The notes below the pieces were generated by a model. The model had not been told where the DNA came from and did no database searches. It was given only the letters and a program-made list of their open reading frames with translations. A stretch of DNA of 40,491 bases from a bacterium (lineage in GTDB: Bacteria; Patescibacteriota; Minisyncoccia; Moranbacterales; UBA2206): positions 1 to 40,491 of the forward strand of contig JAJYDG010000007.1 in the NCBI GenBank assembly GCA_021777675.1, in the 5' to 3' direction. A program made the translations under genes and the position numbers. Shown here piece by piece: positions 21,942-26,220 of this stretch (position 1 is the first letter of the stretch; every line of letters starts with the position of its first letter).

Positions 21942-23837
21942 TCAATTTGTTACTTTATAGTTATCTCCAACACTTCCATCTTCGGAAAGCTTGGTTGTTT
22001 TTCCTTTAGCGGTAAATGACAAATTTTCACCGGTAAATGAATCCTTTGCGGAAAAAACAGCCTGGTTGAAAAGCACCGCCTCACTGCCAACTTGATTGAT
22101 AGATGGTTTGATTTTAATTTGAAAAGAAACTTCCTTTGCCGGCAAAGTTATTCCCGTCCCCGCATTTAATGTTCCCAAGTCCCAAACAATCCCATTCGTT
22201 CTTTCATCATAAGAAAGTGGTTCATTTTCAGGATAAATTTTTCCCGTTGCCGTCACTCCGGTTGGCAAAATAATCTCAACCTTGGCATTAGAAATATCAT
22301 TAGACACATTCATTGCAGATAAATGTATTGTATAAGTCGTTTCATTGCCTACTTTCGGTGGCAGAGGACCGGAATTGGGAATTTTAGCATCATTATAATA
22401 CCCGTTTGCCGTTAAAATAAGCTTGGAATTTAATTTCATATTAACAACATTACTTGCGATCACCTTGTTACCACTAACAGGAGTCGGTATATCAGGGCTA
22501 TCAATTTTGGCTAAGCCGGAAACAACAAAATTTTTATCATTAATGCTTGTTATTGGGATAACACTTTTCACTTCAACTGAAAAACTTATCTTGCCACTCT
22601 GCCCAGGATTAAGCCTTTTTAATTGACTGTGATCGGAAGCTTTCCATGTAATTGTTTTGTCATTGCCATCATATGATCCCCCATCAATACTCAATAAACT
22701 CTCATCCAGAATATTGCTATCTAATTTTTCAGTCACAATTAAATCACTCAACCCGACCGTTCCTTCATTTTTATAATTTATATCGAACTTTAATTTTTCT
22801 CCCGCATCAATATTGAGATTATTCAAGCCATTTACCGTTTGAGAAACAACCAATGGAGATGCTGTAATTTTAGTTTGCGCGTTTTCATCATCATAACTCG
22901 AAAAAATAGCTCCACTATCCGATCCTATCGAAACTTTAACTAAAGCAAAATTGTTTCTATCTCCATTCAATTTTCCATTTACCACTATTTTTCCTTCTTG
23001 TCCGGCTGATAAATTTCCAATATACCAAACATTATTACTCTCGGAAGTTTTTGGATCAGAATTGGAAAAGATAAATCGATCAGGATATTCCGCTTTTATT
23101 TTAATATTGGAAAAATCAGTTGTTCCATTGTTTTTATACGCAAAAACATAATTAACCTCATCTCCGGAAGAAACGCTTTGCGGGGCTAATAAATTGATTG
23201 TTATCGGAGAAGATGCGATATTGACCGGCAATTGATCGCTCGCTATAAATTGGCTATTTACCGTGGACGGACTATATGAAAAATCGGCGACAATTTTCAT
23301 TAAACCACCTTTTGGTTTATACGCTTTTCCGGAAAATATTACTGTGCCAGTAGCGTTTCCCTTGATCGTGCCTAAATTAAACGAACCGGAAGTTGTTCCG
23401 GCAGAAATAAAATTGGGATTTTCTCCCGGAGCAAAATAATCCGGATAAGTTATTTTGATTGTAACATTTTTCAGATCCGCTCGATTCTTATTCGCATATT
23501 TTATTTCATAAGAAACTGGCTTGTCATTTTCAATATTATCCGGTCCGCCAATTGATACGCTCACATTTTGTTGAGCAAAAAAAGATTGCCTGATTTTGTA
23601 AAATCCGGCAACAAACGCCAATAGCAAAATAATGCTTCCTAAAACCAACGCGCCGATCTTAAACGCTTTCTTACTTTCAGAGGATAATTTATTTTCTTTA
23701 TTTTCCCACAAATCTTCAGCGTCAATTTTTTTTTCCACGTCATTGCCGATTGAATTAAATTCGCTTTGCTGATGTTGCAAAATTTCCGCATTCGTTTCTT
23801 TTTTATAGAGCTCTTCTCTTATTTTTGAAAGCGACAT
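21942..23837 (-). CDS. Membrane-anchored surface protein with tandem DUF11/Ig-like repeats
   Basis: Cytoplasmic N-terminus, one TM segment (AFKIGALVLGSIILLLAFVAGFYKI), then about four related beta-rich repeats. Confidence 0.8.
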   Translation of the reverse strand: MSLSKIREELYKKETNAEILQHQQSEFNSIGNDVEKKIDAEDLWENKENKLSSESKKAFKIGALVLGSIILLLAFVAGFYKIRQSFFAQQNVSVSIGGPDNIENDKPVSYEIKYANKNRADLKNVTIKITYPDYFAPGENPNFISAGTTSGSFNLGTIKGNATGTVIFSGKAYKPKGGLMKIVADFSYSPSTVNSQFIASDQLPVNIASSPITINLLAPQSVSSGDEVNYVFAYKNNGTTDFSNIKIKAEYPDRFIFSNSDPKTSESNNVWYIGNLSAGQEGKIVVNGKLNGDRNNFALVKVSIGSDSGAIFSSYDDENAQTKITASPLVVSQTVNGLNNLNIDAGEKLKFDINYKNEGTVGLSDLIVTEKLDSNILDESLLSIDGGSYDGNDKTITWKASDHSQLKRLNPGQSGKISFSVEVKSVIPITSINDKNFVVSGLAKIDSPDIPTPVSGNKVIASNVVNMKLNSKLILTANGYYNDAKIPNSGPLPPKVGNETTYTIHLSAMNVSNDISNAKVEIILPTGVTATGKIYPENEPLSYDERTNGIVWDLGTLNAGTGITLPAKEVSFQIKIKPSINQVGSEAVLFNQAVFSAKDSFTGENLSFTAKGKTTKLSEDGSVGDNYKVTN

Positions 23838-24062
23838 AAAATATTTTTGAAATCTTTTTTTATCTTCTGCTCTTTATTTTATATTATTTTTGATATTTCA
23901 TCAAATCATTATATAAGTCCACCCTACTTTGCACTCTTGAGGTAAATTAAAATTATTGGCTTGTAATGGCAATATAAATTGTTTAAGATGGACTGCTTTG
24001 TCAAGACAGTAATATTAGTTGAATAAGTTAGCTTTTTAAAAAATTACGAAATTATTTTGAAA

Positions 24063-24164
24063 AATATATTTGAGCGAGAACTGGATAATCCAGGGATTGG
24101 CGCTTCCTCTTATTATTGTAAAATGAAAAATATTCAGCCAGTCCCATTCTTGCTTCAATATATT
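24063..24164 (+). ncRNA. Candidate structured RNA or imperfect inverted-repeat element (unclassified)
   Basis: 18-nt arms 24063-24080/24147-24164 pair with one mismatch and two G-U; inner stem 24093-24101/24137-24145 pairs with one G-U; hairpin CTGG-ATAAT-CCAG between. Confidence 0.4.
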
Positions 24165-24230
24165 AACAAAAAATATTTTTGCCAACCCAAGAATCGCGGA
24201 AATTAAACACTTAGTAAGCTATAAATTTTT

Positions 24231-24722
24231 TTAATTATTACAACAGCCGCGACAATTTGCACCGCCAAAATTGTTATTTGGCGCAATGCTTTGCATCATT
24301 TTATGCATTGGGCCACGTCTAAGCCAAATATTATCCAATCCGGTCATATCAAGAAGAAAACCTGTGACGATTATTGCCAAAACAAATCCCAAAACCAAAA
24401 GTAAAAAATTTTTCTTATACGAAAAATCGAATTGACGCAAAAGCACAATCCCAAAAAATAAAGATAACACCGCTCCCAACGGAATCCATAAAGGAAAACT
24501 GGTTAATAGTTCTTCAAAACGAAACTGCCCCATCGGTCCATGAGAACGAATCATAAAACGCATCAAACTGATAATAAAAATAGTTGTTAAGCTGGATGCT
24601 ACGAGTCCCAAAAAAATAAAAATTGATCCAAAAATAAAATAAATTCTGGGACGCATTTTGATTTGTCCTTTATGTATTTTTTTCAATACAACGTTGGAAA
24701 TATCTATCGTTTCTTTTGACAT
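24231..24722 (-). CDS. Multi-pass membrane protein with Met/Cys-rich C-terminus, coupled to the ECF sigma gene
   Basis: Hydrophobic helices; C-terminus MHKMMQSIAPNNNFGGANCRGCCNN; overlaps the sigma gene by 19 nt. Confidence 0.75.
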   Translation of the reverse strand: MSKETIDISNVVLKKIHKGQIKMRPRIYFIFGSIFIFLGLVASSLTTIFIISLMRFMIRSHGPMGQFRFEELLTSFPLWIPLGAVLSLFFGIVLLRQFDFSYKKNFLLLVLGFVLAIIVTGFLLDMTGLDNIWLRRGPMHKMMQSIAPNNNFGGANCRGCCNN

Positions 24723-25270
24723 ATTTTTTTCATTAATAATTTTGCACGGTTAATTCTTGTTGCTACCGTTCCCTGCGGTAATTTTAGAATATCACCAATT
24801 TCTTCATAAGATTTTTCTTCAATATAGTATAGCGCCAACGGTTCGGAGTAGGTCAATGGAATTACGGTTAAGCATTTTTCCACCATGAAAACGATTTCTT
24901 TTCGCAAAAAATCTTTTTCCAAATTTTCCGCGCTTTCAAAATCAAAAGTGGGAAGCATTGGCAATTCTTTTTGATATTTTTTTAAAACATTAAGCGCCTC
25001 ATTATGTGCGATGCGATAAATCCAACTAGAAAATTTTTTCTTTAAATTAAATCCATTGAGATTGATAAAGGCTTTGATAAAAGTTTCCTGCACAATATCT
25101 TTGGCGCGAAATTCATCTCTAATTAAATTATTAGCATAACGCAAAAGCTTGGATTGGTAGCGCTCCATCAAATAACCAAATAATTCTTGATTGTCTGATC
25201 GGACTTTTTTTACAAGCTCCTCATCAGTCATTTTTTCAAAAACACTTTTTTCTTTCTCTTTTTTATCCAT
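24704..25270 (-). CDS. ECF-type sigma-70 family RNA polymerase sigma factor
   Basis: Region 2 LLRYANNLIRDEFRAKDIVQETFIKAF...WIYRIAHNEALN; region 4 SYEEIGDILKLPQGTVATRINRAKLLMKK. Start at MDKKEKEK (25270). Confidence 0.92.
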   Translation of the reverse strand: MDKKEKEKSVFEKMTDEELVKKVRSDNQELFGYLMERYQSKLLRYANNLIRDEFRAKDIVQETFIKAFINLNGFNLKKKFSSWIYRIAHNEALNVLKKYQKELPMLPTFDFESAENLEKDFLRKEIVFMVEKCLTVIPLTYSEPLALYYIEEKSYEEIGDILKLPQGTVATRINRAKLLMKKICQKKR

Positions 25271-25288
25271 AATATGATTATAGCCCAG

Positions 25289-25324
25289 AAAAAACCAAGC
25301 TCCAAAATTAGAGCTTGGTTTTTC
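25289..25324 (-). terminator. Intrinsic terminator between the 123-aa gene and the sigma gene
   Basis: AAAAAACCAAGCTC-CAAAATTA-GAGCTTGGTTTTTC, with A and T runs on both sides. Confidence 0.85.
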
Positions 25325-25335
25325 ATTAAATCGTC

Positions 25336-25707
25336 TTAGCGGTTTAGGCAAGTCGCCATTCCCCTTCCCCGACCAAAATTGCCACCATTTCCCAGGCCAA
25401 GTTCTGCGCGAATTTTTTGCGCTTCAGCTGTCTTGCCCTCTAAAGCTAATTGCTGAGCTTGGGCAAATTTGGAAAAATTATCTTTATTAATAACTTGCAT
25501 TATGCGACCGCGTCCTTGCATAAGACTTTTCCAAGCATCATAATCATTGTTTTGAAAAGCTTTCAGTATTGCGTCATGTCGCTCGGCGGAATAATTCGGC
25601 CCCTTAACATTCAGATCTCCTTGATATGCCTGAGATATGCCCGCCAAGGCTAAGACACCACCCAGAATAATTGTTGAAATCCCCAAAATTAAAGTTGTTT
25701 TTTTCAT
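25336..25707 (-). CDS. Small secreted/membrane-anchored protein, Gly/Arg-rich C-terminus
   Basis: N-terminal hydrophobic signal MKKTTLILGISTIILGGVLALAGISQAYQ; helical body; GNGGNFGRGRGMATC tail. Confidence 0.65.
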   Translation of the reverse strand: MKKTTLILGISTIILGGVLALAGISQAYQGDLNVKGPNYSAERHDAILKAFQNNDYDAWKSLMQGRGRIMQVINKDNFSKFAQAQQLALEGKTAEAQKIRAELGLGNGGNFGRGRGMATCLNR

Positions 25708-25884
25708 ATTATTTATTGTCTATTTTTTATTAAACCAATTAAATTTATCGACCCTTCTAACTTTAATACAACTCAACACTCACTTTTCTTTCATGTATAA
25801 AAATTTTTAGTAATTTTGCCCTATTCTAAAAGTTTTGCTAACATAAAACAATAAATTTATTTAGTTTTAATCCCCTAAAAAAAT

Positions 25885-26202
25885 ATGTCAAACAAATTTC
25901 AAGCCAAAGTTAAAAATTTTATGGACAGAAACAAGTTGAACAGTCCCGTGGAAAACAGGATGCTGGATTTTTTCGATGAAGTTGGCGAAGTTGCAAAAGA
26001 AATAAATAAAATGTCCGCTTATGGAACGAAAAAACCAAACTTCAGAAAAGAAATTATTACGGAATTGGGGGATGCTTTTTATTCACTGATAACTATAGCG
26101 AATTACTACGAAATTGACTTGGAAAAGTCTCTTGATATGGTTTTGGAAAAATACAAAAAAAGGATCAATCAGGGGGGAACAGCGGGATCGGAAAATGATT
26201 AG
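25885..26202 (+). CDS. MazG-like nucleotide pyrophosphohydrolase-like protein
   Basis: FFDEVGEVAKEINKM ... EIITELGDAFYSLITIANYYEIDLEKSLDMVLEKYKKR matches the EExxE...D MazG-like pattern. Confidence 0.75.
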   Translation: MSNKFQAKVKNFMDRNKLNSPVENRMLDFFDEVGEVAKEINKMSAYGTKKPNFRKEIITELGDAFYSLITIANYYEIDLEKSLDMVLEKYKKRINQGGTAGSEND

Positions 26203-26220
26203 CTTTTTAGCTTTATTAAA

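Follow-up and report, generated by a model that had tools for sequence, protein, structure and literature searches.

In the 40,491-nucleotide stretch of bacterial DNA analyzed here (the window), a gap of 393 bp (23838-24230) lies between a DUF11 protein gene (21942-23837) and a gene for a protein of 163 amino acids (24231-24722), with a sigma-70 gene beyond the latter (24704-25351); all three genes are on the minus strand. Within the gap, positions 24063-24164 form a hairpin that a preliminary description had drawn on the plus strand and proposed as a possible new small RNA or decayed mobile inverted repeat. The hairpin is real in the sequence. As described, outer arms of 18 nt, AATATATTTGAGCGAGAA (24063-24080) and TTCTTGCTTCAATATATT (24147-24164), pair with one mismatch (T24071/C24156) and include two G-U pairs (24072-24155 and 24076-24151), and they enclose an inner helix of GGGATTGGC (24093-24101) and GCCAGTCCC (24137-24145) with one U-G pair (24097-24141). 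A small hairpin is also present, although not with the CTGG/CCAG pairs originally drawn (24081-24084/24090-24093), because G24093 is already used by the inner helix; in the best fold its stem is TGGA/TCCA (24082-24085/24089-24092). It was also correctly noted that every wobble suits the plus strand, but agreement of all three has a probability of 1/8 by chance, because a transition in a palindrome favors one strand or the other with the same likelihood.

The minimum free energy of the hairpin is -35.0 kcal/mol on the plus strand versus -26.3 kcal/mol on the minus strand, values matched by 0/4000 and 48/4000 dinucleotide shuffles, respectively. When the whole gap was shuffled 400 times, no shuffle held a segment as good as the hairpin. 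For the locus taken alone, pure coincidence is not a comfortable explanation of a hairpin beyond 4000 shuffles; it becomes acceptable only in view of the many places that could have drawn attention. In a scan of the small genome (879 kb; 878,587 bases folded as 87,240 segments of 110 nt), the hairpin ranked 62nd among all segments, at about the 34th distinct place, and 20th among the 4,730 non-coding segments. About 33 other places fold at least this unusually, roughly one per 26 kb, and the better-ranked places include many terminator-like hairpins and several other long intergenic palindromes. Comparison of the hairpin with the other strong hairpins of the genome revealed no shared sequence. 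An intergenic near-perfect palindrome at G000:C19:64037-64099 (26-bp arms, 11-nt loop, no T tract) occurs once in its genome and differs from the terminators there, and more long imperfect intergenic palindromes, also in single copy, are found at G000:C14:25872-26031 and C14:32292-32451.

The same DNA can be read as protein on the opposite strand. The minus strand from 24162 to 24052 translates to YIEARMGLAEYFSFYNNKRKRQSLDYPVLAQIYFSK followed by a stop, and this segment consists of the final 36 codons of an IS3-family transposase (24055-24162) and a TAA stop codon (24052-24054). The gap had been described as holding no ORF, which is correct for whole genes but overlooks this transposase tail, which covers the element. 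A tblastn search of plasmids (7.3 Gb) gave matches in 245 records, the best of which (57.6% identity over 33 residues, E = 1e-5) is annotated as an IS3 family transposase, as are most of the annotated hits among the matches listed. Annotated relatives, the "ISPpy1 family" among them, come from plasmids of Ca. Chlorohelix, Moraxella, Psychrobacter, and Desulfosarcina. Among 380 genomes from the phylum, eight, including that of the window itself, matched at E <= 1e-4; the best other match (61% identity over 33 residues, E = 3.9e-10 per genome) lies inside an open frame of 305 codons. The NCBIfam profile transpos_IS3 was matched at positions 339-362 of 369 (E = 0.0017), and the first weak signals also included Pfam rve_3 (E = 0.016) and PHROG transposase families (E = 0.019). 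The matches in the relatives stop at or near their annotated stop, and the TAA codon is placed at the stop of the relatives or between a few and about 20 codons from it. In a six-frame comparison the mean BLOSUM score was 89 for the IS3 frame versus at most 6 for the other five, and codon positions 1, 2, and 3 carry 9, 9, and 22 of the differences from the nearest relative. Because the match is confined to a single frame and the changes are biased to the third position, this segment descends, as protein-coding sequence, from the C-terminus of an IS3-family OrfB transposase. Two more long open frames lie over the gap, one of them a plus-strand frame of 59 codons, and neither had real relatives. 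A relic of pilM had also been considered from a match in G001 (GLAEYFS), which is only 73% identical over 51 nt; the idea was abandoned when the IS3 match was found.

Beyond the stop codon the arrangement also resembles that of an IS3-family element. A short AT-rich spacer (24009-24051, minus strand) leads from the transposase stop to a right terminal repeat, TGTCTTGACAAAGCAGTCCATCTTA (23984-24008, minus strand), a layout repeated in L165, L168, L176, and L181. The repeat agrees with seven relatives at 17 to 20 of 25 positions: 20 in L176, 19 in L165 and L168, and 18 in L175, L181, and L186, scores reached by none of 300 shuffles in each of these six cases; the seventh relative is L180. Candidate left repeats about 1.05-1.09 kb upstream can be pointed to in the intact relatives L165, L168, L180, L184, and L185, although not all are beyond chance. 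In the window, the 66 bp between the relic and the stop of the 163-residue gene (24165-24230) had no convincing match in a search of the genus, and reading them disclosed neither a left terminal repeat nor a target duplication. The window copy thus shares with IS3-family insertion sequences the in-frame transposase C-terminus with its stop near the same place, the spacer, and the right terminal repeat, but it differs from them in being a single copy that retains only the final 36 codons and the right end, without orfA, the catalytic core, or the left end. The DDE core and an orfA/orfB pair with its frameshift are absent, the 36 codons being bounded upstream by the 66 bp and then the 163-residue gene. 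This IS3 copy is a relic rather than a functional element.

On its other side, the relic adjoins a second one. The segment 23909-23983 (minus strand) comes from an IS481-family element, whose 3' end it forms, with the C-terminal codons, QFILPLQANNFNLPQECKVGWTY, and the end. Positions 23909-23982 are 86-89% identical to several places in the same-genus genomes G002 and G004, and for two further places in the same genome the identity is 78-79%. The transposase of the matching element scores best against NCBIfam transpos_IS481. Copies of this element are found in G000, G002, and G004, where several other copies are likewise truncated relics. The right end of the IS3 relic cuts it at 23984: the terminal repeat ends at 23984 and the BLAST match to the IS481 element at 23982. 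Because these two ends lie side by side, we infer that the IS3-family element sat inside the IS481-family element; with the IS3 left end and target duplication gone, the insertion cannot be demonstrated by an empty site. The IS481-family element is thus the probable host of the IS3 insertion. As a source of the hairpin it was rejected, since anchored extension does not carry the match into the hairpin. The gap is thus made up of two nested, truncated insertion-sequence relics.

The surroundings of the gap also vary among relatives. The DUF11 gene of the closest relative, G002, directly adjoins an MFS transporter gene, and similarity to the window ends at 23906, leaving a difference of about 2.3 kb (23907-26220). 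Between the DUF11 and MFS genes this segment of the window holds the IS relics, the 163-residue gene, the sigma factor, a 123-residue gene, and MazG, and an IS-associated rearrangement here is likely. In two genomes of the same genus, G005 and G006, a tRNA-Ser(cga) gene follows the sigma-factor/163-residue operon (L154, 3592-3683; L155, 3591-3679); this tRNA gene is absent from that place in the window. In two further relatives another gene follows the 163-residue gene; in none of these four is there a hairpin of this kind downstream. A G002 contig (L055) finishes with AGATCGGA (G002:C58:3882-3889), which resembles the start of an Illumina adapter, and its last bases are probably an artefact.

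The position of the hairpin, 67-168 nt beyond the stop of the 163-residue gene, and a TTTTT after the arm on the minus strand would suit a transcription terminator of the sigma-factor operon that ends at 24231. However, the T run is well separated from the GC-rich helix, the minus-strand fold is the weaker one, a terminator scan did not list the site, and orthologous operons have other sequence downstream, all of which makes a terminator very improbable. A promoter-like sequence, TTGGCA-17-TATATT, occurs at 24157-24185 on the minus strand, with its -10 element in the hairpin arm and directed toward the DUF11 gene; sites of this type are no more frequent in the region than expected by chance.

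Conservation of the pairing was assessed by aligning 15 relatives to the window without gaps, giving 16 sequences. The proposed pairs are formed in 52.3% of cells versus 50.9% with shuffled partners, a level reached by 69 of 500 shuffles. A covariation test, which the preliminary description had suggested, gave no signal, its score being equalled by 76 of 500 shuffles, and RNAalifold predicted no pair from the 16 aligned sequences. When the register was slid as a control, the proportion was 34-43%, somewhat below the 52% of the true register, as expected for a structure derived from a single member of the alignment. In the window 30 of 30 pairs are formed, against an average of about 15 in its relatives; folded singly, almost all of the relatives are little or no better than shuffles. 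An exception is L176 (z about -3), yet it keeps only 11 of the 30 pairs. The small hairpin partly recurs, as CTGGTAATCCAG in L168, because the conserved codons LDYQ/P write it. Taken together, the alignments indicate that the pairing is not conserved in the IS3 relatives, and compensatory changes that would preserve it were not found in the 15 aligned.

These data bear directly on the proposal of a new small RNA. Antisense RNAs regulate some other IS families (IS10, IS30, IS200). A plus-strand RNA from the relic, folded as originally drawn and perhaps domesticated as an antisense RNA to transposase mRNA, would likewise lie opposite the transposase strand, and the strong plus-strand fold and the three wobbles are consistent with it. 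But the known examples belong to other families, the relic has neither a conserved structure nor an above-chance promoter on the plus strand upstream, no Rfam family matched, and a single-sequence covariance model gave no convincing hit, either in the genome or across 34 genomes of the family. A small RNA of this kind is thus highly unlikely, and it seems equally doubtful that this one species has converted the transposase tail into a lineage-specific structured RNA made from the antisense strand of the relic. Nothing bearing on the locus was found in the literature.

The other proposal, a decayed mobile inverted repeat, was right in recognizing decayed mobile DNA and wrong in taking the hairpin for the inverted repeat of the element, whose own terminal repeat is the one at 23984-24008, outside the hairpin. 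A MITE-like or other mobile palindrome, with the hairpin arms as terminal inverted repeats and AATATATT, present at both outer ends, as target duplication, would account for the 18-nt arms. However, DNA searches of the own genome found only the hairpin itself, those of the genus, 131 genomes of the order, plasmids, and phages gave chance matches only, most of which fell within unrelated genes (pilM and a UvrA-like gene, for example), and an exact 20-mer search of viral contigs found no real copy. Since the arms also lie within transposase codons, a mobile palindrome is the least credible of the readings considered.

Alternatively, the palindrome could have been sharpened after the insertion, through template switching between neighboring quasi-repeats that made one arm conform to the other. 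The complete pairing in the window, compared with its relatives, and a fold that the shuffles never reach speak for such an event. Against it, the arms consist of normal transposase-tail codons with third-position bias, so that little non-coding rewriting is possible; this origin is improbable, although less so than the others.

The element is almost certainly the decayed right end of an IS3-family insertion sequence in the remains of an IS481-family element, with a coincidental hairpin. An IS3 copy would have inserted into an IS481-family element that was already present and whose 3' end remains next to it; the IS3 copy would since have lost everything upstream of its last 36 codons. These codons with their stop, the spacer, and the right terminal repeat make up the relic. 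The hairpin most probably came from chance complementarity between stretches that code for different conserved motifs in the tail of the transposase: EAR and LAQ in the outer arms, GLA and QSL in the inner helix, and LDYP in the small hairpin. The element has no visible function of its own.

The feature is real but ordinary, a genomic fossil. Its fold beyond 4000 shuffles and its strand-biased wobbles illustrate that even a hairpin with both properties can be an unannotated gene relic. The coding tails of such relics fall below the usual ORF cut-offs, and a six-frame check should precede the description of intergenic palindromes as RNA.
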